From Sthenelais limicola (lineage: Eukaryota > Annelida > Polychaeta > Phyllodocida > Sigalionidae), in contig OW804094.1 in assembly GCA_942159475.1 (NCBI GenBank), positions 135,890,755-135,954,754 on the forward strand: DNA of 64,000 nt. Direction: 5' to 3'. Position numbers and translations under genes: made by a program. Of the stretch, positions 15,502 through 56,706 are shown one piece after another. Each line of letters begins with the position of its first letter. The stretch's first letter is position 1. A model generated the notes under the pieces. The model ran no database searches. It worked only from the letters and a program-made list of their open reading frames with translations, and was not told the DNA's origin.

Positions 15502-17030
15502 TGGGCAGGGGAAGGGGGAGGGGGGAGGGGGAGGGGAGGGGGGAAAGGGGAGGGAGGAGGAGTGGAGAGGAGGGGGGGGGGAGGGGAGAGGAGGGGGAGG
15601 GGAAGGGAGGAGGGGTAGAAGGGGAGAAGGGGGAGAAGGGGGAGCAGGGGGAGCAGGGGGAGCAGGGGAGGGGGAGGAGGGGAGGGGGAGGAGGAGGGCA
15701 GAGGAGGAGGAGGGGAGGGGGAGGAGGAGGGGAGGAGGAGGGAAGAAGGAGGGGAGGAGGAGGGCAGGGGGAGGAGGCGAGGGGGAGGAGGAGGGCAGAG
15801 GAGGAGGAGGAGGGGAGGGGGAGGAGGAGGGGAGGAGGAGGGAAGAAGGAGGGGAGGAGGAGGGGAGGGGGAGGAGGGCAGGGGAGGGGGAGGAGGAGGG
15901 GAGGAGGAGGGAAGAAGGAGGGGAGGAGGAGGGGAGGGGGAGGAGGGGAGGGGGAGGAGGAGGGGAGGAGGAGGGAAGAAGGAGGGGAGGAGGAGGGGAG
16001 GGGGAGGAGGGGAGGGGAGGGGGAGGAGGGGAAGGGGAGGAGGGGGAGAAGGGGAGGGGAGGAGCAGAGGGAGGAGCAGGAGAAGGGGGCGGGGCAGGAG
16101 GGGAGGGGAGGGGGGGAGGAGAGGAGGGGGAGGGGGAGGGGAGAGGAGGGGGAGGGGAAGGGAGGAGGGGGAGAAGGGGAGAAGGGGAGAAGGGGGAGCA
16201 GGGGGAGCAGGGGGAGGGGGAGGAGGAGGGGGAGGAACAGGGGAAAGGAGGAGGGGCGGGGGGGAGGAGGGGGAGGAGGAGGGGGAGGAGGAGGGGGAGA
16301 GGAGGAGGGGGAGGGGAGGAGGAGGGGAGGGGGAGGAGGAGGAGAGGGGGAGGAGGAGGGGAGGAGGAGGGGGAGGAGGGGGAGGAGGGGGGAGGAGGGG
16401 AGGGGGAGGAGGGGAGGGGGAGGAGGAGGGCAGAGGAGGAGGAGGGGGAGGGGGAGGAGGAGGGGAGGAGGAGGGGGAGGGGGAGGAGGGGAGGGGGAGG
16501 AGGGGAGGGGGAGGAGGGGGAGGAGGGGAGGGGGAGGAGGGGGAGGAGGGGAGGGGGAGGAGGGGAGGGGGAGGAGGGGAGGGGGAGGAGGGGAGGGGGA
16601 GGAGGGGAGGGGAGGGGGAGGAGGGGAGGGGAGGGGGAGGAGGGGAAGGGGAGGAGGGGAAGGGGAGGAGGGGGAGGGGGAGAAGGGGTGGGGAGGAGCA
16701 GAGGGAGGAGCAGGAGAAGGGGGCGGGGCAGGAGGGGGAGGGGAGGGGGAGGAGGAGGGGAGGAGGGGAGGGGAGGAGCAGAGGGAGGAGCAGGAGAAGG
16801 GGGCGGAGCAGGAGGGGGAGGGGAGGGGGAGGGGAGCAGGAGGAGCAGGAGGAGCAGGAGCAGGAGGAGCAGGAGCAGGAGGAGCAGGAGGGGGAGGAGG
16901 AGCAGGGGGAGGGGGAGGAGAAGGAGGAGAAGGAGGGGGAGGAGAGGGAGGGGGAGGGGGAGGAGAGGAAGGGGGGGAAGGAGAGGAAGGAGGAGGAGGG
17001 AGAGGAGGAGCAGGGGGAGGAGGAGGTGGG
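15502..17030 (+). repeat. 1.5-kb purine tract, (GGGGAGGAGGAG)n type
   Basis: About 1,530 bp with nearly only G and A on the plus strand (GGGGGAGGAGGGGAGG-type variants), with rare C in GGAGCAG or GGGCAG. Larger duplicated blocks recur, for example AGGAGCAGGAGAAGGGGGCG at about 16071, 16708 and 16785. G-runs of 4-6 are spaced to allow G-quadruplexes, and mirror symmetry allows triplex DNA. Frames of over 500 codons on both strands arise only because TA-containing stops are absent. Confidence 0.95.
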
Positions 17031-24324: not shown

Positions 24325-24620
24325 TATAGGAGCAGCAGGAGCAGGAGAAGGAGAAGCAGGAGAAGCAGCAGGAGCAGGAGCAGGAGAAGCAGGAGCAGGA
24401 GCAGCAGGAGCAGCAGGAGCAGGAGCAGGAGCAGGAGAAGGAGAAGCAGGAGAAGCAGCAGGAGCAGGAGCAGGAGGAGCAGGAGCAGGAGCAGCAGGAG
24501 CAGCAGGAGCAGGAGCAGGAGCAGGAGAAGGAGAAGGAGAAGCAGCAGGAGCAGCAGCAGGAGCAGCAGGAAGAGGAGCAGGAGAAGCAGAAGCAGCAGG
24601 AGGAGCAGGAGCAGAAGGAG
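24325..24620 (+). repeat. (GGAGCA)n / (GGAGAA)n simple repeat
   Basis: Hexamer-rich repeat with larger internal duplications. The 168-codon Gly/Ala/Glu frame and minus-strand Ser/Cys or Pro/Ala frames through it are low-complexity artefacts. Confidence 0.9.
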
Positions 24621-25904: not shown

Positions 25905-26487
25905 GATACTTTTGTTTAGTACAAGTGTTACTGTCTCCCTCAGATATGAAAAGTCAACAATAAGAAGGAGATTTGAGAAAGGGATTTTCAAGATTTGGAT
26001 ATATTATATCACAACTTGGCTAGTTATCAACCTCGCAACTCACTGATCCGGACTATGCATAATGTTTCGGAAAAGTACATAGTGGGTCAAATTTTTTTAG
26101 AATGTACAATTGCACATTTTGGGACCTTTGCGTATTATACTGAATGGTTATGGCAGAGAAATTAATGAATCCTATTGATCCTGATGTCATCGGAAAGGGA
26201 ACATCCATAGCTTTATGAAAATGTACACATTAGTATACTTATTTGTAACTTTCGTATGGAAAAATGACTTTCAATGTTGATATTCTTGTAAAAACACCTC
26301 AAAATTCACTACTTTTTCACTTTGTACCTCCCTTCTGAAAAAAAGGAACTGTTCTAGGTATCAAATTTCACATGGTTTCATATGTTATGCATATTTATGA
26401 CAACCTAGTGAAGTTTTAGCCTTCTATTAGCTCTCATCAGAGTGTGTCAGTCCTATACTGAAATGTCCAATCTTCAGGAGTCATTAG

Positions 26488-26876
26488 GGGATGCCCGGTA
26501 TCAAACTTAGATTGGTGTATACTGGCTGAAAATATATCTGCCACATATGATTTAAAGTATCTAAAATACACTTTAACATATTAGTGATGCAATTCTGGTA
26601 CAATTTGGCCAGTAATACAGACAATAGCTGGGCCATGCTTCATTGTTTACCAGACCAGAGATTTTATACTATTCCATACCGGGTATGCCCTGTACCCTAA
26701 TATAATGTAGATCCAATTTCTGGGGCAACTGGGGAATTAAAACCCAGTATATGTAATCCTAGTATCTATCCTAATATTCACACCAAATGACAATCTTCCA
26801 AATAAATTTATTGTGGGGATATGAATGAAAATGATATGAGGGGTATGCCCGGTATATTGAGGGGTATACCCGGTAT
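26488..26876. repeat. Iterons 1-4 of the long element
   Basis: GGGATGCCCGGTAT at 26488-26501 (+); ATACCGGGTATGCCC at 26676-26690 (minus type); GGGTATGCCCGGTAT at 26841-26855 (+); GGGTATACCCGGTAT at 26862-26876 (+). The last two are 21 bp apart, start to start, about two helical turns. The sequence between them is not repeated. Confidence 0.9.
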
Positions 26877-27227
26877 GGCAGGAAAGGAAAAGCTAGAACA
26901 CACATTCAAATTGTTTTTACAAGACCAAGCCTCTGTTTTTTCGTCTGTAAACCAAGACAACCACCCTATATAGTTATTGGATAGGTATTCCTGGGATTTC
27001 TTGGACATTGTCAACCAGAATGAGAGTGACCAAAGATTATACATGCCCTTGTATGGTGTGGAATTATTGTTAAGATGTTTAGGAATTAACCATCTGTGTG
27101 ATATTCATCAGTCTAATCATTATTTATATGTTTAAAAAGTTGTTTTCAACAATTCTAAGTGAAGCATTTTCCTGTCATAGATTAAAGGAAAGATTAATAT
27201 AGCCTCACAGTTAACAAGAATCCAAGA

Positions 27228-27782
27228 GGGTATACCCGGTACCATCATTATTTAACATGATTTCTATGCACATTTAATAATTATTTTTCAATGGGGATCA
27301 TGTTAAGTTAGTTTTTATTAATCAGAAATATCATATGTATAATTCTACATACTTTTAAGACTATGGGGTCAGGCATGTTGAGACAAATGTGATATAAATT
27401 GATACCGGGCATCCCACAGAAATCATTTTCTGTTGATAAATGATAGCAAAATAGCATAATTATTGCAGGTAGGCTCCTCCTATTATATGTCAATGTCCCT
27501 TGCAATTCCTTTGTCAATGTACAAGTGAAAATCTGTTCATAAACGCAATAGAGGCCTTTTTAAAGCATATTAAAAGAGTGGTTGATACCGGGCATCCCCT
27601 AATACCGGGCATCCCTCCTTCTATCTTAGTAACCTTGACTAAGTCCATTTTTAACCTACAAATCGCCATAAAACTTACCATTTGAACATATCATGCCTCA
27701 CTGTACATATGTATGTAGCTTTATGCCTCATTTCCATGCAATTTAATTCAACTTTAACCAAAATCATGATACCGGGCATCCC
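27228..27782. repeat. Iterons 5-9 of the long element
   Basis: GGGTATACCCGGTAC at 27228-27242 (+); then four identical minus-type sites ATACCGGGCATCCC at 27402-27415, 27585-27598, 27602-27615 and 27769-27782. Sites 7 and 8 are 17 bp apart. Confidence 0.9.
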
Positions 27783-28122
27783 TTGGCAACCCCTGTAAGT
27801 TAGAACTTTTGTTATAACTTCTACCCATGTGACCTTATCTTCTGTATTGTTATGCAGAAACATGCCCTGTTTCCTCCCCGAAAATGTGAGAACATTAGAA
27901 ATAAGATATGACAACTTTTATTTTTTAGATGTTTTTTTAGATGTCTTAACCACCATATAATTTCATTAAAAAATATTATGATGCATCATATCGAGTTATT
28001 ATCATCGATTTTAGAGCCTGTATCCATTACTACATATGTTTCTTGTGTACTTACTGTGTTTCATGTGATCGCGCCCATAATCATAGCCATAATGTGATGT
28101 TAGATAACCTGTACTCTTCTGG

Positions 28123-28756
28123 GGGATGCCCGGTATATAGAGGGATGCCCGGTATATTTGAGAAGGTGTTGGTCTCAGGACAAGTGAGGTGATATTTAGT
28201 CAAGGAGTGACTTGAAATTAGATCAATTGTATACCAAATATATTTCTCCTTTGATGTAGATCATTTTCTATTATTGATATGAAGACTTTCTGACTTATTT
28301 ATGATGGGAAAGTTGATGGGGAAAGTTGATGGGGAAGGGTATGCCCGGTATATGTGAAAAGGGATGCCCGGTATCAAAGATGGCTTTCTATTACCAATTT
28401 TCCCAGGAATACTAAACATGATAACTTGGTAATAAGTTGCTATATTGATTGAATAGATGTATATGTTTTCAGAAAACAGGTTTTCACCCTGTTTATGGCA
28501 ACAACTGCAGCATTATTGAATTTATATTTGAACCATACGTTACCAACCAAAACACTCCTGTTTTGGGTAAATGTGATCCATTTGCTTTCATGTCTCACAT
28601 GAAACCCTTAGATGATACATAGTTATGGATTGGTATACTTGTAAAGGAACATTTAATCCTGATAAGGAACTACTTTTTATTTGGAAATTGAATCATTATG
28701 TTCTGGGTTATTGAGGATATAAGGACCTGCCACTTCATTTGATACCGGGTATACCC
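28123..28756. repeat. Iterons 10-14 of the long element
   Basis: GGGATGCCCGGTAT at 28123-28136, 28142-28155 and 28361-28374 (+); GGGTATGCCCGGTAT at 28337-28351 (+); ATACCGGGTATACCC at 28742-28756 (minus type). Pairs at 28123/28142 and 28337/28361 are 19 and 24 bp apart. Confidence 0.9.
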
Positions 28757-29164
28757 TAAAAAAAGATCACCTTGTTTCAACTACAATAAAAAGTGACATA
28801 TTGAAATCTGGTGAATATAATTGGTGTTTTTAGGTGATTGGGACATCTATGATACCAGTCAGAAGGAATATGAGTTTATATTTACTAATTTTTTTTTCAA
28901 TCTTCCTAAATCTCTCAAAATCGCAATTGTACATTCTAAAAAAATTTGACCCATAATTGTGTGTTCCGGCCACTAACGAAGGCGCTTGTTATCTTGGCTC
29001 TGATTGGTTCGGTGTGCACTCAGGAAAAGTGGGTCACCAGTCATGCACGCTGTATTATCCAATGAGATTGAGTCTTTCATAAGGTGTTTGGGATGCATAA
29101 GATAAACAAGTTTCGGCGGAAAGCCATGCGAGGTAAATAAATCATTTTTTAACACTTTTTTACT

Positions 29165-29271
29165 CATTGGAATCATATATGCACGTAGTTGAAACGGTTG
29201 TATCATCGATCGTGGCTATGCCACTTGCGATGATACAACCGTTTCAACTACGAGTGCATATGATCCCAACT
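29165..29271. mobile_element. Foldback element L
   Basis: GTAGTTGAAACGGTTGTATC at the left pairs with GATACAACCGTTTCAACTAC at the right; the outer arms (ATTGGAATCATATATGCAC and GTGCATATGATCCCAA) extend the palindrome. Confidence 0.75.
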
Positions 29272-30406: not shown

Positions 30407-30628
30407 ATATGAGATGTGTTTCAGGAAAATGAGTCACAAGTCGCAAAAAATAGATTCTGTGGTATCATCATATAAGATGGGATCAAGCCGAGTCTAATGA
30501 TAGTAAATATTAGGTTGTACTTCTATATAACTTATGCATGAAAAAAAGGTAGCAACATTTCTTGAGGGACAATCATTAGTAAATTAGCTAAATATAATGC
30601 TCAAGATGACCTCAGAAACGTATAGATA
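30407..30628 (+). mobile_element. Family B MITE, copy 4, left part
   Basis: TATGAGATGTGTTTCAGG start. Cut at 30628 by the Ty3/Gypsy element, whose target duplication ATAC is 30625-30628; the right part resumes at 38568. Confidence 0.85.
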
Positions 30629-30775
30629 CTGTTATAGAGTCAAAATAATAGTATTTGTTGTCTATTCGTCCTTTTGACGTTTCGCTTGTTCTTAAGAAAT
30701 AACTAACTTTCTGGAGATGTCATCTCAGGTGACGGTTCGCCCTCTGGCGATTCGCCTTTTCTTTCTCTAACATTA

Positions 30776-30843
30776 TATGACGAATGTACTTGTATGACGA
30801 ATGTACTTGTATGACGAATGTACTTGTCTGACGAATGTACTTA
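30776..30843 (+). promoter_or_regulatory. Four 17-bp tandem repeats in U3
   Basis: TATGACGAATGTACTTG three times, then TCTGACGAATGTACTTA. They lie about 75-140 bp upstream of the TATA box, where LTR enhancers usually lie. Function is inferred from position only. The same array is in the 3' LTR. Confidence 0.65.
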
Positions 30844-30915
30844 GGTGGCGAATTACAACTACTTGGAGGCATTGTACTGTATTTTGATTGGCCTGCTTAT
30901 GGTCCGCATTTTTAC

Positions 30916-30954
30916 TATAAAAGCTGTGATTGTCATAACCAGAATGAGAATAAA
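30916..30954 (+). promoter_or_regulatory. LTR TATA box and poly(A) signal
   Basis: TATAAAA at 30916-30922 and AATAAAA at 30949. Such close spacing fits an R region beginning shortly after 30940, with the signal being used only at the 3' LTR. Confidence 0.7.
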
Positions 30955-31124
30955 ACTGGCTGCTAACTTAGACAGAGCTTGTCCATTATTCTACCAACAC
31001 TCCTAGTCGATTAAGAAGTATCCTCACGAGTAATCTGACGATTTACCTATCAGGCGAGAAGCAACTAAGGCGAATATCTCTAAGTCTTTATTAAGAAGCG
31101 AATAACATATCAGGCGAAAGTACA

Positions 31125-32243
31125 ATGGCCTATTCGACATCACCATCACTCGAACATCTGTGGGATGACCAGCCCCAGGGGGAAGACCCCCTTCATCTAA
31201 TGAGTCAGCAACTGGACGAAAGGCGAAACCGTATCATTGGTGGCAGCGGTGGGATATGTGATGCCCTGGAGGAAGACGGATCCTCCTCATCCATGACGGA
31301 TCCACATCCCTTCGCCTTAACCCCGTCGCTGGAAGTTACAGTGAATCCCAGACAGTATGAGAATTGGAGAACCTCTCAGCCAGCTCGAGATAGGAGGGTG
31401 AGGGTACTGGACGAAGTACCAAAGCCAGATACCAAGCCAAAGCCAGGGAGTGGAGGAGGCATCGCCACGGCCAGGCCAGGACGAAAGGTGAAAGCTTCAC
31501 CTCGCATCTATGATGGTTCTACCTCCTTGGGCGATTTCCTGAATCATTTCCAGGTAGTTGCCGACCTAAATGATTGGACTGACAAAGAATGTGCACTGTA
31601 CTTGGGCGCCAGCCTCGACGGGTCGGCCCTTGCTGTATTGGAAAAGGTCGACTTAGACGCACCAAACAGTTACCTGCTGCTGGTGGAAGAACTGGAGAAA
31701 CGCTACCAACCTGCTGACCAGCTGGCATTGTACCGCACCCAGTTGAGGCTGAGGAGGCAACAGAAAGACGAGGATGTGAATGTGGTTGCTGATGACATTG
31801 AACGAATGATTCGCCTGGCATACCCACGAGTGGACAGAGAGGTGAGGGATGACTTGAGTAGGGATGCCTACATTGCTGCCTTACGTGATGAACGACTGAG
31901 ACAATGGGTGGTGCAAGCTCGACCAGGGACATTCGCTGAGGCCAGAGCTGCTGCCCTCCATGCTGAAGCTTTCACCCAAGCCGAAAAGGACAGGTACTCT
32001 ACACCAAAAGGCCAGATCAGAGTCGCCGTAAGTGAAGGGACTAAGAGGGCTGACCCCATGGAGACAGTGTTTGAGAAGATCCTGGAGCGGCTAGAACGTC
32101 TAGAGACCAGTAGAAGTCAACCCAGGAGTAGGGGCTGCTTCCAGTGTGGCGAAATGGGGCATTTCAAGCGAGACTGCCCGAATCGGCCAAGACTGCCCGT
32201 TGTAGAGGGCCAGCAACCCCAGGGAAACGACCAAGGACAGTGA
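31125..32243 (+). CDS. gag: Gag polyprotein (starts inside the LTR)
   Basis: 372 residues. Structural protein that packages the element RNA. The ATG has a good context (ACAATGG). The first 37 codons lie in the LTR, and the next codons read through the primer-binding site as IIGGSGG. Residues about 125-290 (YDGSTSLGDFLNHF, then LSRDAYIAALRDERLRQWV) fit the Retrotrans_gag capsid domain. A CCHC zinc knuckle at residues 338-351 (CFQCGEMGHFKRDC) is the nucleocapsid RNA-binding motif. The frame ends in TGA at 32241, after overlapping pol. No upstream in-frame ATG downstream of the LTR could replace this start without losing the capsid N-terminus only partly, so an alternative start within gag cannot be excluded. 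Confidence 0.93.
   Translation: MAYSTSPSLEHLWDDQPQGEDPLHLMSQQLDERRNRIIGGSGGICDALEEDGSSSSMTDPHPFALTPSLEVTVNPRQYENWRTSQPARDRRVRVLDEVPKPDTKPKPGSGGGIATARPGRKVKASPRIYDGSTSLGDFLNHFQVVADLNDWTDKECALYLGASLDGSALAVLEKVDLDAPNSYLLLVEELEKRYQPADQLALYRTQLRLRRQQKDEDVNVVADDIERMIRLAYPRVDREVRDDLSRDAYIAALRDERLRQWVVQARPGTFAEARAAALHAEAFTQAEKDRYSTPKGQIRVAVSEGTKRADPMETVFEKILERLERLETSRSQPRSRGCFQCGEMGHFKRDCPNRPRLPVVEGQQPQGNDQGQ
31238..31255 (+). promoter_or_regulatory. Primer-binding site, tRNA-Leu
   Basis: TGGTGGCAGCGGTGGGAT begins 1 nt after the LTR. It is complementary to the 3' end of animal tRNA-Leu of the AAG/TAG type (..ATCCCACCGCTGCCA plus CCA) as I recall that sequence, over 18 nt. It lies within the gag reading frame and encodes a Gly/Ser stretch. 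Confidence 0.88.
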
Positions 32244-32275
32244 ACAACCGGGATCCTGTCCAACGCATAACCGGT
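32222..32275 (+). promoter_or_regulatory. -1 frameshift site with possible pseudoknot
   Basis: GGGAAAC at 32222-32228 is phased as G GGA AAC relative to gag, the canonical X XXY YYZ form. After a 6-nt spacer, GGACAG (32235-32240) can pair with CTGTCC (32256-32261). Loop bases ACCGG (32247-32251) can pair with CCGGT (32271-32275), giving an H-type pseudoknot. This would join gag and pol 15 nt before the gag stop. Confidence 0.8.
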
Positions 32276-35200
32276 GGGAAGGAGGGATGGATCGCGGTAC
32301 AAGGGCGATGGGACCCCTCCACAGCAGGAGTGATAGTAGATGGACGATGTAGAGGGGTCATGATCCAGTGGCTAGTGGACACAGGGGCGTGTACAACCAT
32401 CATTAGCAAGCAAGTCTGGCAGAGCATGAACGAATCACCCCCTCTGAGAGCATCCCCTGTGAGGATAACTGGAGCTGGAGGAATGCCGGTGGATGTGTTA
32501 GGGGAAACAGACATTGAGGTGGACTTTGGGACATTGAAAATTCAAATGCCAGTGATTGTGGCTAAATTGGACCAAGGAGGCATACTAGGTATGGATGTGA
32601 TCAGGAGTAGGAAAGGCCAGGTGGATACAGGCAGCGGTATCATCTGGCTGGAAACCAATGGGACAGTGGCTCCTGAGAGACTGGAAGGCTATGCTTATGC
32701 TGCCCATGAGACTACTGTAAAAGCGGGTAGCAGAATGATGATGAAGGTCGAGTGGACAGCTAGGACGGATGAGGACCAAGTACTGATCCTGGAGGACGGA
32801 GGATTCGTTCCTGACCTCAGAGTGGCAAGGTCTGTACACACTTCCCAAGCAGGGGGGAGTGTGGCTGAGGTGCTGAACAATGGAGATCAAGACATTCGTG
32901 TGCCCAAGGGAAGCAAGATGGCCGTCTGGGTTGAGGGAGAGAAACCCCCACCAGCAGGAGATAGACCTGGGCGAATGAGGACGCAGGAGCAAGAGGAGCA
33001 GCTCATGAAAGATCTGTGGGCTCAGACGGATGAGGAACTAGTGGAGAAATGTGCCGAAACAATTGATAATCTCTATCGGCAATTCCTGCATGTATTCTTT
33101 GTGGAGGGGGAAGAACTAGGAAGGACTGACCTAGCAAAACACCATATCATGACAGGCACCAACCCACCAGTCAGGAATAAACCAAGACGGGTCCCCATTC
33201 ATAGGAGACAAGTAGTGGAAACAGAACTGGAGCGAATGGCGAAAGGAGGAATTATAGAACCTGCTTCTGGACCATGGGCTTCGCCAGTGGTGTTGGTAAA
33301 GAAGAAAGACGGGGGCTGGCGGTTTTGTGTAGACTATAGGGACCTAAACAAGATTACGAAGAAAGACGCCTACCCCCTACCCAGAATGGATGACACCTTG
33401 GACATGTTGAATGGGGCTAGAGTCTTTGCAACATTGGACTTGGCGAGTGGCTACTGGCAGGTCGAGATGGAAGAAGACAGTAAGGAGAAAACCGCCTTCT
33501 GTACTCATCAAGGGCTATTCCAGTTCAAAGTCATGCCCTTTGGCCTAGTGAATGCTCCTTCCACGTTTGAAAGACTAATGGACACTGTGCTATCTGGACT
33601 GGTAGGAGACCAATGCCTGGTCTACCTAGATGATGTGATTGTATTTGGGAAAGATGTGAAGGAGTGCGCAGAACGCCTGGCTGTGATTCTAGAGCGAATC
33701 GACCATGCAGGGCTAGTCGTCAAACCCAGCAAGTGCCAACTATTCAGGACATCAGTTGCGTTCCTAGGGCATGTCGTCTCAGGAGAAGGAGTGGAGACTG
33801 ACCCGTCGAAAATAGAAGCAGTCCAGTCCTGGCCCATCCCTACTACCAGGGAGATGTTGAGGAGCTTCCTAGGCTTCTGTTCCTACTACAGGTCCTTCGT
33901 CAGAGATTTCGCCACGATAGCCAGCCCACTTTTTCAACTAACAAAGAAGGATGTTACATTCGTATGGACTCCAGAGTGTCAGACAGCCATGGAAGAGCTG
34001 AGAGACAGACTGTGCACAGCACCTATCCTGAGATACCCAGACGCCAATCTCCCTATGACTCTTGATACGGATGCATCTAATAGTGGTTTAGGAGCCGTGT
34101 TATCTCAGCATATAGAGGACAGGGAAATGGTGTTAGGATTCGCCAGCAGATCCCTGACTAAAGCAGAGAAAAACTATTGTGTCACGAGGAAGGAGCTACT
34201 AGCCATCCTGTTTGGTATCAGGAGATATCGCTCATACTTAGTGGGAAGCCATTTCACAGTCAGAACCGACCATAGTGCACTCAAGTGGTTGTTGGAGATG
34301 AAGGAGCCCGAGGGTCAGTTGGCTAGATGGATGGAAGAACTCGCCTCCTACTCATTTACTGTACAACATAGGGCTGGAAAACGACATGGGAATGCGGATG
34401 GACTCTCACGAATCCCCTGTGGACAGTGCCACAGAGTTGATTATGAGGAGGAGGAAATAGTCACGAGTCGTCTGAGAGTAATTACCTGGGATGTGGGACA
34501 GAACTGGGTGGAAGAACACCAAACTGACGATCCACTGTGTGTGCTGTTCAAAGAGGCAGTGGAGAGGGACGAGTGTCCAGGCGAACGTGATCGCATACCT
34601 GGGCGCGACTGGAACTGGTTTTTATGCAATTTCCAATCCCTAGCCATCCAGTCAGGACTATTGGGGAGTTGGAGATGGACTGGTCAAGGGGGAAGAGAAT
34701 GGCGAGTGTACATCCCTGTGTCAGCCCGAGAGGAATTTCTGAAACAAGTGCATGAGGGCCCTCTGGGGGCCCATTTAGGCCGAGACAAAACTTTTAGCAA
34801 AGCCCGGAAATCAGCCTACTGGCCTAATATGACTAAGGACAATGCCCTGTTTGTCTCCACCTGCATGCCCTGCCAGCAGAGGAAAAGCCCTAACAACAAG
34901 AGGAGAACTAAGATGGGGGAACGCCCCCTGAAGGGGCCATGGGAGGAGATGGCCATGGATATTACTGGCCCTTTACCAGAGACTGAACGAGGCAACAAGT
35001 ACATCTTGGTGGTGACTGACTTATTCTCAAAGTGGACAGAGGGATTTCCCATTCGTGATTTCACAGCACAAACAGTAGCCGACGTCTTAGTCCGAGAAAT
35101 CATCTGCCGCTTCGGTACCCCCCTCATATGGCACTCAGACCAGGGGAGGAACTTTGAGGCTAGTCTGTTCCAAGAAGTGGCTAGGGTGTTGGGGATATAC

Positions 35201-37687
35201 AAGACGAGAACCACACCATACCACCCAGAGGCCGATGGCCAGACGGAGAAATTTAACTCTACGATGTCCACCATGTTAACAGGCCTAGTGGACGAGGAGC
35301 ATAGTGATTGGGACTTGTGGGTGTGTTTTGTGACAGCAGCGTACAGGGCCTCTACACACACTACCACTGGCTTCTCGCCTAATTTCCTGTCCCTTGGCAG
35401 AGAAACCAATATGCCCTGGGATGTAGCATACCCAACCCCCGGAGGGGAACTGATGACGAGAGAACATTATGTGAGGAACATGGTCACCATGATGGAAGGA
35501 GCCCATTCAATCGCCTTCCAAGCCATGCAAGCTACTCGGCTAAGACAGAAGGACTACTATGATAAGTTTACTAGAGAGACTAAGTATCAGGAGGGCCAGT
35601 CTGTTTGGATCTACCAACCCATAAAGAAGATGGGCCGGTCCCCCAAGTTTCGCCAGTATTGGACGGGCCCCTGGCTGGTGGTTGAGGCTCTCAGTGACAT
35701 GATATACCGGGTCCAGAGAGGCAGAAAACGGCGAGTAGTACATGGAAATGTCATGAAACCAGCCAACGTGGGGGAGCGAGTCACCCGTGTATGTTATGAC
35801 AACACTGAAACTAGGTCGCCGGGGGAAAACCCATTGGCAGAGGAGCCGAGCGAAGCGCCCTTGACTACGAGAAGGGAACCTAGCAACAGTGACCTAATTC
35901 CAGAACGAGACGGGCGCCGACCGCAGGCGGCGAGTCACCTAGCAACGCTTCAAACCAATGAGATACATTCTGATACAGGTCCCGCGCGCGGAGCTGTGAT
36001 AGCGACCTGCCATGACGTCACGTCGCCTGTTCTGAGGATCGAGAGGCGAGAGCGGGAGCCAAACATCCAAATGCAAAAAGGGCATGTAAGGACAATAACT
36101 AGGAGTATGAAACGAAAAGAGAAAGAGGATGCCAAAACTTTATGTTCTGACCAAAAAAATCAAATAAAGCAGTTGTGTAACGACCAAGAGAAGGCAGGGA
36201 GACCGACTGCAGAGGTGGCGGGGAGGACTGGCGGCCAGCTTGAAGCCAGTGCAGGGGACTTGTTGCTTGGTAGCAGTTCCTACAAAGTATCAGGCAAGAA
36301 CAATAAAAGCGATCGGGGCTCGGGTGGCTTTTCAGTTCAACTCGACATGGCTTCGAAGCAACTACATGAGTGTCGTTACCCCACCTGCGATTATGTCACC
36401 AGAGATAGGGGCCAGGCTGAGGAACATCAACGAGACAAGCATGATGACTTGATCCTGGGCGTGAAGTGCGATCTCTGCCCAAAGATTGTGTACAACCGGA
36501 GAAAGCGAGACCTCATCAAGCATCGCCAGAATGTACATCAAGATCAGAGGCTAGACTGGCCTGGGCCGGTTCAGGTGCTAGTGCTCACCTGCCGGCGACC
36601 GCTCTCCGGACGAATCGCCACAGAACAAGAGGCGGAGTTTTTCTACCAGGGAATCAGATGTACTCATGATTTCCCAGCTGGACAGAGGGTACAGCCAACC
36701 CCCACCCCTGCCGATTCACCCAAGTATCCACCTCAGCCGACTCGCCAGCCCTACCGTCCCCAGGTAGAGCCAGTGACACCTGCGAGGGCCGAGTCACCGG
36801 TGCAAGACGGGCTGCTACAGGAGTTCGCCCTGGAGGCGATTGGCCAGACTCCGGGAGTAGTTAAAGTGACAGACCTGACTGACTCCACCATTCCCCCAAG
36901 AGCTGTGAGAGTGGCTAGCAAGATGATTAGGCCTGCTTCGCCACTGCCTCCCCAACAAGTAGGTCTAGTGACGTCTGAGACCACCTTCAACGGGCCAGTA
37001 GCACAAGACGAGGGGCCGCAGGAGACGGCCACACCTAATGCTGACCAGTCGCCAACCAAGAGTGGATCGCCTGTGCTTCCCACCTCCCCTGTCCGCAACC
37101 CCCCTGCTTTCCCCCCAGAGCAGTCCCAGTCGCCAGGTGGACAACTGGCACTGGAGGAAGTCCCACCCCCTGTCAGACAAGAGCCTTCTGTCCTCCATAC
37201 CCCTCCTCCCCCCTCTACTCCCCAAGGCCAATCGCCAGGAGAACGCCAGCTGCAGTGGAGTCTGACCCCCAGGACCTGTGATAGCCTGAACCAGCTGGTC
37301 ACTGAGACTGTCAGAGACGTTGCCCCTCCCCCTCACACCTCCCTCAAGAGTGGATCTGTTTTTAGACCGGAGCTAGGACTGCCCCAGTGCAGCCCTATGA
37401 TAGTGCCAACCAACATCCTTCTGGACGAAGAAGACGAGACTTGGGAATTGTTGGAAGGTACGCAAGTGTGTAAGCTTGCTTACAAGCGTACTTTCAAGTG
37501 GGAGACTATCGACCCTCTTCTTCCCTCCCCCAATCCAGAAGGACCACCACATCTCCCCGACTGGCCTGGTTTCCCTCGGCGAGTCAACCGCAGCAAGGTC
37601 AAGTGCCGACGGATGCTGGGACACTTTCACTACACCCAAGAGGTGTCTGCCACTTACAGGCTGGAGGAAGAGGATGAAGACATGTGA
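32222..37687 (+). CDS. pol: Pol polyprotein with C2H2 C-terminal extension
   Basis: Frame -1 to gag; expressed as Gag-Pol (about 2,187 residues) by frameshifting. Numbering here counts from the in-frame ATG at 32144, which is probably not a start. Protease: DTGA at 79-82. RT: about 342-560, with YLDD at 494-497. RNase H: TDAS at 642-645 and DHSALKWL near 709. Integrase: zinc motif H870, H877, C907, C910; catalytic D939, D999, E1035 (35-residue spacing), then a GPY/F-like WTGPW near 1172. From about 1200 an extension not found in ordinary Gypsy pol holds two C2H2 fingers (C1410, C1415, H1428, H1433; C1442, C1445, H1460, H1465) and a Pro/Ser-rich tail ending in acidic EEEDEDM. No stop or frameshift interrupts it. 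Confidence 0.95.
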   Translation, partial: GKRPRTVNNRDPVQRITGGKEGWIAVQGRWDPSTAGVIVDGRCRGVMIQWLVDTGACTTIISKQVWQSMNESPPLRASPVRITGAGGMPVDVLGETDIEVDFGTLKIQMPVIVAKLDQGGILGMDVIRSRKGQVDTGSGIIWLETNGTVAPERLEGYAYAAHETTVKAGSRMMMKVEWTARTDEDQVLILEDGGFVPDLRVARSVHTSQAGGSVAEVLNNGDQDIRVPKGSKMAVWVEGEKPPPAGDRPGRMRTQEQEEQLMKDLWAQTDEELVEKCAETIDNLYRQFLHVFFVEGEELGRTDLAKHHIMTGTNPPVRNKPRRVPIHRRQVVETELERMAKGGIIEPASGPWASPVVLVKKKDGGWRFCVDYRDLNKITKKDAYPLPRMDDTLDMLNGARVFATLDLASGYWQVEMEEDSKEKTAFCTHQGLFQFKVMPFGLVNAPSTFERLMDTVLSGLVGDQCLVYLDDVIVFGKDVKECAERLAVILERIDHAGLVVKPSKCQLFRTSVAFLGHVVSGEGVETDPSKIEAVQSWPIPTTREMLRSFLGFCSYYRSFVRDFATIASPLFQLTKKDVTFVWTPECQTAMEELRDRLCTAPILRYPDANLPMTLDTDASNSGLGAVLSQHIEDREMVLGFASRSLTKAEKNYCVTRKELLAILFGIRRYRSYLVGSHFTVRTDHSALKWLLEMKEPEGQLARWMEELASYSFTVQHRAGKRHGNADGLSRIPCGQCHRVDYEEEEIVTSRLRVITWDVGQNWVEEHQTDDPLCVLFKEAVERDECPGERDRIPGRDWNWFLCNFQSLAIQSGLLGSWRWTGQGGREWRVYIPVSAREEFLKQVHEGPLGAHLGRDKTFSKARKSAYWPNMTKDNALFVSTCMPCQQRKSPNNKRRTKMGERPLKGPWEEMAMDITGPLPETERGNKYILVVTDLFSKWTEGFPIRDFTAQTVADVLVREIICRFGTPLIWHSDQGRNFEASLFQEVARVLGIYKTRTTPYHPEADGQTEKFNSTMSTMLTGLVDEEHSDWDLWVCFVTAAYRASTHTTTGFSPNFLSLGRETNMPWDVAYPTPGGELMTREHYVRNMVTMMEGAHSIAFQAMQATRLRQKDYYDKFTRETKYQEGQSVWIYQPIKKMGRSPKFRQYWTGPWLVVEALSDMIYRVQRGRKRRVVHGNVMKPANVGERVTRVCYDNTETRSPGENPLAEEPSEAPLTTRREPSNSDLIPERDGRRPQAASHLATLQTNEIHSDTGPARGAVIATCHDVTSPVLRIERREREPNIQMQKGHVRTITRSMKRKEKEDAKTLCSDQKNQIKQLCNDQEKAGRPTAEVAGRTGGQLEASAGDLLLGSSSYKVSGKNNKSDRGSGGFSVQLDMASKQLHECRYPTCDYVTRDRGQAEEHQRDKHDDLILGVKCDLCPKIVYNRRKRDLIKHRQNVHQDQRLDWPGPVQVLVLTCRRPLSGRIATEQEAEFFYQGIRCTHDFPAGQRVQPTPTPADSPKYPPQPTRQPYRPQVEPVTPARAESPVQDGLLQEFALEAIGQTPGVVKVTDLTDSTIPPRAVRVASKMIRPASPLPPQQVGLVTSETTFNGPVAQDEGPQETATPNADQSPTKSGSPVLPTSPVRNPPAFPPEQSQSPGGQLALEEVPPPVRQEPSVLHTPPPPSTPQGQSPGERQLQWSLTPRTCDSLNQLVTETVRDVAPPPHTSLKSGSVFRPELGLPQCSPMIVPTNILLDEEDETWELLEGTQVCKLAYKRTFKWETIDPLLPSPNPEGPPHLPDWPGFPRRVNRSKVKCRRMLGHFHYTQEVSATYRLEEEDEDM
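36371..36538 (+). other. Two C2H2 zinc fingers within Pol
   Basis: Coding for CRYPTCDYV...HQRDKH (C-x4-C-x12-H-x4-H), then CDLCPKIV...HRQNVH (C-x2-C-x14-H-x4-H). It follows the integrase C-terminal region by about 230 residues and precedes a tail of about 380 residues rich in P, S, T and Q. Might tether the pre-integration complex to DNA or chromatin, a role chromodomains play in other Gypsy integrases; this role is inference. Confidence 0.8.
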
Positions 37688-37948
37688 TTGAGAGAACAAT
37701 TGTGTTAGTTAGTGTTGCTTCTCTCTAGAGTGACTAGTTTTAAAACTTGGGACGTTTTCCACCATATCTACTCCTTCGAATTATTCCAATGGACGCTTTG
37801 CTGTGTGATTTTTGCAGAGACGATGAACAATAAGGTATGCTGAACTGTGATTAGAGACAATTATCTCCGGTGCTTCTTGACTACTGTGGCAGCTGATTTC
37901 CAGAACAGTATTGATATTTATCTTTTCTTACGGGTCAAGAAAGCTAGT
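37688..37948 (+). other. 3' untranslated region of the Gypsy element
   Basis: Between the pol stop and the polypurine tract. No further ORF, so no env. Confidence 0.6.
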
Positions 37949-37960
37949 GGGGGGGGATAA
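37949..37960 (+). promoter_or_regulatory. Polypurine tract
   Basis: GGGGGGGGATAA directly next to the 3' LTR; expected primer for plus-strand DNA synthesis. Confidence 0.8.
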
Positions 37961-38567
37961 TGTTATAGAGTCAAAATAATAGTATTTGTTGTCTATTCGT
38001 CCTTTTGACGTTTCGCTTGTTCTTAAGAAATAACTAACTTTCTGGAGATGTCATCTCAGGTGACGGTTCGCCCTCTGGCGATTCGCCTTTTCTTTCTCTA
38101 ACATTATATGACGAATGTACTTGTATGACGAATGTACTTGTATGACGAATGTACTTGTCTGACGAATGTACTTAGGTGGCGAATTACAACTACTTGGAGG
38201 CATTGTACTGTATTTTGATTGGCCTGCTTATGGTCCGCATTTTTACTATAAAAGCTGTGATTGTCATAACCAGAATGAGAATAAAACTGGCTGCTAACTT
38301 AGACAGAGCTTGTCCATTATTCTACCAACACTCCTAGTCGATTAAGAAGTATCCTCACGAGTAATCTGACGATTTACCTATCAGGCGAGAAGCAACTAAG
38401 GCGAATATCTCTAAGTCTTTATTAAGAAGCGAATAACATATCAGGCGAAAGTACAATGGCCTATTCGACATCACCATCACTCGAACATCTGTGGGATGAC
38501 CAGCCCCAGGGGGAAGACCCCCTTCATCTAATGAGTCAGCAACTGGACGAAAGGCGAAACCGTATCA
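37961..38567 (+). repeat. 3' LTR
   Basis: 607 bp, identical by eye to the 5' LTR except for one missing T. It carries its own copy of the gag ATG and first 37 codons (38456-38567). That frame continues into the flanking MITE to a stop at 38650, giving a 64-codon chimeric ORF. Confidence 0.97.
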
Positions 38568-49233: not shown

Positions 49234-49505
49234 AGATCTAATGAGTGAGTGAGTGAGTGAGTGAGTTTGGTTGCTTTACACCCTTATAAACACATTTCAA
49301 ATGGTTATATCAAGGGCGGGAGAGCTGAGAGGGAGTGAGATTGGTTGCTTTACGCCCTCATCAACACATTGAAGGTTATATCATGGGCGGGAGAGCGGAG
49401 AGGGAGGCAGTTTATGATCATACCCAGGAAATAGAGATAGAGAAGAAGGGAGAGAGAGACAGAGAAAAGAGACAGAAAGGCACTTTTTGGTCATACCCAG
49501 GACCA
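49234..49505 (+). mobile_element. SINE-like family F, tandem heads plus body
   Basis: Two partial heads ((GAGT)n, TTGGTTGCTTTACACCC; then GATTGGTTGCTTTACGCCC) followed by one body with GGCAGTTTATGATCATACCC and TTTTGGTCATACCCAGGACC. Confidence 0.7.
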
Positions 49506-55899: not shown

Positions 55900-56706
55900 T
55901 GTGAGTGAGTGAGTGAGACTGGTCGCTTTACGCCCTTATCAACACATTTAGTATGGTTATATCAAGGGCGGGGGAGTTGAGAGTGAGTGAGTGAGTGAGT
56001 GAGGGAGTGAGTGAGGGAGTGAGGGAGTGAGATTGGTTGCTTTACGCCCTTATCAACACATTTAGTATGGTTATATCAAGGGCGGGAGAGCTGAGAGCTG
56101 AGAGGGAGGCAGTTTATGATCATACCCAGGAAATAGAGATAGAGAAGAAGGGAGAGAGAGACAGAGGAAAAGAGACAGTAAGGCACTTTATGGTCATACC
56201 CAGGACCACTTGTGAGAACATGGAGGCACGACTTATATCAAGGGCGGGGGAGTTGAGAGTGAGTGTGTGAGTGAGATTGGTTGCTTTACGCCCTTATCAA
56301 CACATTTAGTATGGTTATATCAAGGGTGGGGGAGTTGAGAGTGAGTGAGTGAGTGAGATCGGTTGCTTTACACCCTTATCAACACATTTAGTATGGTTAT
56401 ATCAAGGGCGGGAGAGCTGAGAGGGAGTGAGTGAGTGAGATTGGTTGCTTTACGCCCTTATCAACACATTTAGTATGGTTATATCAAGGGCGGGAGGGAT
56501 GAGAGGGAGTGAGTGAGTGAGATTGGTTGCTTTACGCCCTTATCAACACATTTAGTATGGTTATATCAAGGGCGGGAGGGCTGAGAGGGAGTGAGTGAGT
56601 GAGATTGGTTGCTTTACGCCCTTATCAACACATTTAGTATGGTTATATCAAGGGCAGGAGAGCTGAGAGGGAGGCGGTTTATGATCTCACCCAGGAAACA
56701 GAGATA
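55900..56706 (+). repeat. 82-bp tandem array of SINE-like F heads
   Basis: GATTGGTTGCTTTACGCCC starts at 56031, then at 56275, 56357, 56439, 56521 and 56603, the last five exactly 82 bp apart. Each unit carries CTTATCAACACATTTAG, GGTTATATCAAGGGCGGGAG and (GTGA)n. One full body (GGCAGTTTATGATCATACCC...) lies at 56107-56210 and a truncated one at the end. Confidence 0.88.

Follow-up and report, generated by a model that had tools for sequence, protein, structure and literature searches.

Fourteen conserved sites dispersed through a non-coding DNA transposon of the annelid Sthenelais limicola: candidate cis-acting binding sites needed for its spread

Why should a non-coding DNA transposon carry 14 copies of one short motif, in both orientations and along most of its length, and why should these copies be conserved while the DNA between them is not? 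The question is raised by an element located in the window, that is, the whole 64-kb stretch of DNA analyzed here. The best explanation, to which a probability of roughly 0.6 is assigned, is that the 14 sites would act in cis as binding sites of a sequence-specific protein on which the non-autonomous element depends for its spread. The coordinates of the element, its terminal inverted repeats (TIRs), the sites, and the neighboring features are given in Table 1.

Table 1. Positions in the window of the element, its TIRs, the 14 sites, and neighboring features.
Feature	Position in window	Strand	Form or sequence	Position in element consensus
DNA transposon, window copy	26083-28953	.	2871 bp; non-coding, apparently non-autonomous	
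Left TIR	26083-26113	+	TGGGTCAAATTTTTTTAGAATGTACAATTGC	
Right TIR	28923-28953	-	same as left over 31 bp	
Site 1	26488-26501	+	exact	407
Site 2	26676-26689	-	variant	596
Site 3, paired with site 4	26842-26855	+	variant	760
Site 4	26863-26876	+	variant	779
Site 5	27229-27242	+	variant, last letter C	1145
Site 6	27402-27415	-	exact	1319
Site 7, paired with site 8	27585-27598	-	exact	1502
Site 8	27602-27615	-	exact	1519
Site 9	27769-27782	-	exact	1686
Site 10, paired with site 11	28123-28136	+	exact	2027
Site 11	28142-28155	+	exact	2046
Site 12, paired with site 13	28338-28351	+	variant	2233
Site 13	28361-28374	+	exact	2257
Site 14	28742-28755	-	variant	2639
GGA-rich repeat	15508-17026			
AGCAGG array	24331-24620			
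Inverted repeat downstream of element	29167-29269			
Ty3/gypsy-type retrotransposon	30625-38255			
Tandem array	49255-49406			
Tandem array	56233-56673			

The earlier note had placed the element between perfect inverted repeats of 29 bp; the identity is indeed perfect, and the repeats are 31 bp long. A consensus of 34 copies has a length of 2849 bp and contains all 14 sites, whereas stop-to-stop frames longer than 96 codons are absent from it, and an Rfam search of the window gave no match. In the genome (1.13 Gb in 161 contigs), the exact TIR is present in 213 + 195 = 408 copies, compared with 0 for the reversed control, and 0 matches were obtained in viral contigs. These 408 exact ends suggest that a few hundred full-length copies exist genome-wide. 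A 2-bp target duplication was detected in 30 of the 33 two-ended copies (TA in 24, GA in two, GG in two, TG in one, and AA in one), and was absent in the window copy, L011, and L035. Among these 33 copies, the duplication is mostly flanked by A before its left copy and by T after its right copy.

Among 100 places listed of the 408, exact TIRs form 25 pairs, including 19 of 2809-2871 bp, one of 2058 bp, and five longer ones. The same 100 places include 47 unpaired exact ends, 20 of which were fetched, all on contig C1; every one belongs to the same family (20/20) and retains the one or two sites expected within its 600 bp. The window element is a member of a multi-copy, non-coding family of DNA transposons, which are of the cut-and-paste type judging by their anatomy. 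When an autonomous partner was sought by size among the exact-TIR pairs, none was found. Several of the longer pairs (L047, L048, and L051+L052) hold inserts of foreign sequence. Two of them were considered as partners and rejected: L047 (5.7 kb) is a copy of the element family plus an insert with no frame of at least 110 codons, and L051+L052 (11.8 kb) is a family copy with other inserts, in which the longest frame printed has 164 codons. The insert of L047 (645-3504 of that locus, 2.86 kb) has inverted ends of its own (CACTCTAAGAA...) and resembles another DNA transposon family. At a further locus, L050 (G000:C1:29674000-29680500), tandem units of 1404 bp each open with the first 126 bp of the element fused to other sequence; it carries no sites and reads as a truncated element copy amplified in tandem.

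Several other repeats were observed around the element. An inverted repeat of 50 bp, whose arms are 84% complementary and enclose a 3-bp loop, lies just downstream of it and is perhaps a small fold-back element. The Ty3/gypsy-type retrotransposon contains a pair of identical direct repeats of 300 bp, separated by 7331 bp, which represent parts of its LTRs, each with a 17-bp tandem array; this identity suggests a young insertion. It has a zinc-knuckle frame and a frame of 1851 aa with protease, RT, RNase H, and integrase domains, followed by a tail of approximately 640 aa without a Pfam match. Among the 120 listed of 4622 matches, relatives of the polyprotein occur in various animals at 37-57% identity over the aligned part, and none is close. 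In addition, the window contains an AGCAGG array, a GGA-rich repeat of about 1.5 kb with strong strand skew that is open in several frames on both strands, and two tandem arrays, 7 kb apart, of related 74-bp and 82-bp units with TATATCAAGGGCGGGAGAGC.

With regard to the sites themselves, all 14 in the window copy match GGNATRCCCGGTAY (information approximately 25 bits). The eight identical and six variant copies, the blocks of orientation, and the four close pairs reported in the earlier note were all recovered, the exact form being GGGATGCCCGGTAT and the pairs being 21, 17, 19, and 23 bp apart in the window copy. At position 3 of the motif, G, T, and C occur, whereas A is very rare; position 6 is G or A, and position 14 is T or C. 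The core is partly palindromic (ATRCC-C-GGTAT). When up to three mismatches are allowed, the window contains 19 matches, whereas 2.91 would be expected; this number was attained in 0 of 100 shuffles. Of these matches, 14 are the sites, another shares bases with site 2, and the remaining four, with three mismatches, are in other places. Genome-wide, the exact 14-mer occurs 1155 + 1217 = 2372 times, and the same pattern read backwards does not occur (0). The outermost sites start approximately 406 and 211 bp from the element ends, and the others are distributed over the middle. It was also proposed that the spacers are unrepeated and that the arrangement is neither a satellite nor a CRISPR. In contrast to both, there is no head-to-tail array, the orientation alternates, and the spacers are unrelated, with one exception: an old duplication, about 206 bp in length, connects the site pairs 10/11 and 12/13.

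Two sets of copies were used to compare sites with spacers. The motif-picked set derives from 20 loci, which are clusters among the first 100 of the 2372 exact places; 14 of them plus the window gave usable copies. The TIR-picked set comprises 19 copies chosen by two exact TIRs, blind to the motif, with L050 dropped as a fragment without sites. Because an exact motif or an exact TIR was required for the choice of copies, young copies are sampled and old ones are under-represented. The site core was defined as 12 positions per site (all except 3 and 6, with position 14 included).

The earlier note had named three outcomes that would count against its reading, namely that other copies lack the sites, that the sites diverge as fast as the spacers, or that the motif is equally frequent throughout the genome; none of the three was seen in the copies and loci sampled, which supports that reading. 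All 16 standard-length TIR-picked copies carry 10-14 sites. In the 19 TIR-picked copies, 34 of 3108 core positions (1.1%) are off the consensus, compared with 5101 of 48,339 spacer positions (10.6%). In the 20 motif-picked loci, scanned with the pattern GGNATRCCCGGTA, all 211 matches fall inside the element, in sequence that can be aligned with it. The motif-picked copies gave similar values (core 22/2420, or 0.9%; spacer 4220/37,936, or 11.1%), and nine truncated or partly fetched copies fit the pattern (core 15/638; spacer 1151/9846). Of 34 copies, 28-33 have any given site intact, and 0 of 5000 sets of pseudo-sites drawn in the spacers were as conserved as the real ones. In the 15 motif-picked copies, 1.7% of the CpG cells within the sites carry a change, compared with 31% at 11 spacer CpG positions. 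The fastest-diverging 100-bp stretch is consensus 2101-2200 (17% from the consensus), between the duplicated site pairs, with 601-700 close behind.

How such conservation is achieved can be read from a tree of 43 copies (the 34 plus 9 of 12 further ones; L073, L077, and L083, with <1800 bp aligned, were excluded), which was built on spacers alone and on which changes were counted by parsimony. On terminal branches shorter than 0.03 (n = 15), 29 core and 352 spacer changes were counted, a per-position ratio of 1.27 that does not differ from neutrality (CI 0.86-1.83, p = 0.23), the branch-length classes having been picked after the data were seen and this neutral class resting on those 29 core changes. 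The ratio is 0.12 on terminal branches of 0.03-0.08 (n = 8; 7 core and 898 spacer changes), 0.13 on those above 0.08 (n = 20; 30 and 3574), and 0.11 on internal branches (n = 41; 22 and 3166). Core changes per copy do not follow the length of the terminal branch (Spearman 0.08, p = 0.61), while spacer changes do (0.97). An earlier tree of 34 copies agrees, with 15 core and 318 spacer changes on 10 terminal branches shorter than 0.05, and 8 and 2144, respectively, on internal branches.

Pairwise comparisons gave the same picture. In five close pairs, 15 of 784 core and 318 of 12,518 spacer positions differ (p = 0.34). Pairs below 3% (n = 6) show a divergence of 1.54% in both core and spacers; at 3-6% (n = 2), the core is faster than the spacers (5.1% vs. 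3.7%), and one further pair shows 2.4% in the core and 8.5% in the spacers. In the four bins from 10% to 25% (852 pairs), the core stays at 1.4-2.2% and the spacers reach 12-20%. Apart from T/C at position 14, the commonest change within a site is G>A at position 10, which represents CpG decay.

It appears that the sites are neutral in copies that have landed and required in lineages that go on spreading, as are the TIRs. Equal change of core and spacers on recent branches, together with near-invariance between lineages, implies that it is the site-bearing copies that found new lineages. A requirement of the sites in cis for propagation is highly likely. As causes of the conservation, maintenance by the host, gene conversion, and a low mutability agree poorly with these data. 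Maintenance of the sites by the host after insertion (regulatory or structural co-option), or their homogenization by gene conversion among copies, is very unlikely: the low divergence of the sites as such would agree with it, as would the variance among copies at the two degenerate positions, which is weakly in excess (P 0.05 and 0.02) and for which shared ancestry alone suffices, but this explanation is largely contradicted by the recent branches and the closest pairs, where sites change like spacers, and by the CpG decay within sites.

Gaps of at least 15 bp, truncated ends included, occur in 14 of the 43 copies, and no deletion of at least 15 bp with the same end points was found in two of the 43. 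The absence of amplified deletion derivatives fits a need for the interior of the element, although it is only suggestive in so small a sample. This bears on a different idea, in which the sites would be targets of a repressor that limits copy number and would be carried because self-restraint keeps the element alive. A dual role of this kind has a precedent, as TNPA of maize En/Spm is reported to double as a negative regulator (PMC2613891). Among copies, however, selection favors escape from a repressor, so loss of sites should spread, and no site-poor lineage was seen: the poorest TIR-picked copy, L049, has six strict sites and owes the loss to a deletion shared with no other of the 43 copies. 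The repressor idea is therefore given almost no credence.

Considering that selection apparently acts on the sites only via spreading, the protein in question should aid mobilization or help new copies to enter the germline. The pattern of conservation, the presence of sites on both strands, the degeneracy at two positions, and a core that is partly palindromic together point to a DNA-binding protein, for which the sites probably serve as docking points. The first choice for such a binder would be the DNA-binding part of a transposase, or a TNPA-like accessory protein, from an autonomous relative; whether the element family itself encodes the binder is judged to be an even bet. Binding sites known for transposon-encoded proteins are located close to the ends, and the wide distribution of the present sites counts against this explanation.

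The arrangement of the sites may provide a further hint. When close pairs are merged, 10 site groups remain, with gaps of 188, 174.5, 375.5, 173, 191.5, 175.5, 351.5, 208.5, and 393 bp, i.e., one or two steps of approximately 184 bp. The ladder that fits best repeats every 184.5 bp (rms error 12 bp) and leaves three of its internal slots vacant. Over periods of 100-300, the probability of such regularity ranges from 0/20,000 to 0.0051 depending on the null, for a ladder that was noticed before it was tested. Without one or the other arm of the duplication, it amounts to 0.00015-0.01, and the first seven site groups taken alone give 0-0.002. The ladder should thus be treated as a lead. No signal in phase with it was found in spacer GC (P 0.83) or substitution rate (P 0.40), and the best remnants of sites in the three vacant internal slots, with 10 of 14 letters, are unconvincing.

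A spacing of this kind might be a relic without function, left from an origin of the element by tandem amplification of a satellite monomer of about 185 bp. The spacing is indeed monomer-like, and one step of the ladder does stem from the genuine ~206-bp duplication. On the other hand, the remaining units show no clear similarity beyond the sites (scores 25-34, with a shuffled maximum of 29; values up to 34 may be due to halves in which the partner site of a close pair is included), the orientations alternate, and near-invariance of the sites while their flanks diverge by 17-20% contradicts a lack of function. Such an origin is considered extremely unlikely as an explanation of the sites.

A nucleosome covers 147 bp, and a repeat of 185 bp leaves a linker about as long as the span of one close pair, which is 31-38 bp for two 14-bp sites 17-24 bp apart. 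The ~184-bp step thus corresponds to about one nucleosome repeat, a match made after the fact. It is possible, although less likely, that the binder is instead a host germline protein (an architectural or pioneer factor, e.g., a multi-finger zinc-finger protein), which the element would recruit to obtain a phased, accessible nucleosome array that favors mobilization. Selection would then act on spreading lineages in the same way, with the protein belonging to the host. The resemblance of the spacing to a nucleosome repeat and the fit of a site pair into a single linker agree with this alternative, and so does the information content of the motif, since a specificity of approximately 25 bits is typical for multi-finger proteins. 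However, a factor of the host should also have binding sites elsewhere in the genome, and the confinement of the motif to the element in the 20 motif-picked loci counts against it, although weaker sites may be accepted; the lack of a phase signal in spacer composition or substitution is a further point against it.

Under the preferred reading, in which the protein would come from the element's own kind, sites in nucleosome linkers along the whole element could let the protein coat or loop it, and coating or looping would bring its two ends together. A tentative and rather unlikely extension is that the transposon has a chromatin scaffold of its own: the sites would lie in successive linkers over most of its length and be required for mobilization, and the bound protein would phase the nucleosomes, fold the 2.85-kb element, and join its ends. 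If so, the target of selection would be the architecture of the whole element, which would explain why shorter derivatives fail to take over.

The known cis-requirements of eukaryotic DNA transposons are mostly at or near their ends. Here, a requirement distributed over 14 sites could be recognized in a non-coding element from sequence alone. Comparison of site and spacer change along a tree of copies can distinguish what is needed to spread from what the host maintains, and the site core may act as a clock that dates the most recent jump. Should the ~184-bp spacing be due to nucleosomes, selection by transposons for a chromatin arrangement, beyond their end sequences, becomes testable.

Several known systems resemble the element in part. 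Similar to MITEs, it is non-coding, has TIRs, and is homogeneous in length, but it is not well under 1 kb, as seen from the 19 of 25 exact-TIR pairs near 2.8 kb. Its target duplication is mostly TA and yet departs from the strict TA of Tc1/mariner in 6 of 30 cases. The CENP-B box of alpha satellite is bound by a transposase-derived protein and recurs at about nucleosome spacing; alpha satellite is tandem, whereas the spacers here are unrelated and the orientation alternates, and the likeness is one of arrangement. Insulator-type factors occupy linkers and keep nucleosomes in register between their sites. In contrast to such phased arrays, the present sites are limited to one transposon family in the sampled loci. 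Literature searches covering titles and abstract openings among the entries listed gave no description of this family or of a ladder of sites over the whole length of an element.

The nearest precedent is found in the CACTA elements (En/Spm, Tam1, and Tgm), which are reported to contain many copies of one 12-20 bp motif in direct and inverted orientation (PMC2613891). These subterminal repeats are cis-acting in excision, are bound by element-encoded TNPA-type proteins, and differ between families; the Tgmt* repeats lie no further than 159 bp from one end and 732 bp from the opposite one (PMC2613891). The likeness consists in one short motif repeated in both orientations inside a DNA transposon. 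Here, the 14 sites are conserved between lineages, and we infer their need in cis; they are spread along the 2.85 kb on the ~184-bp ladder, whereas the CACTA repeats adjoin the ends. The ends start with TGGGTC instead of CACTA or CACTG, and the target duplication is 2 bp, compared with 3 bp in plant CACTA elements. By its ends and its target duplication, the element is outside the CACTA definition. In the hAT element Hermes, several short internal sites are reported to recruit the multimeric transposase via BED domains and to be used to locate the left end (PMC10368747). These are AAGT-type motifs that are concentrated towards the tips, and the transposase prefers 8-bp targets (PMC10368747), whereas the sites here are 14 bp long and distant from the tips, with a duplication of 2 bp. 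What would distinguish this family from both CACTA elements and Hermes is that its sites extend over most of the element's length and keep to a nucleosome-like repeat.
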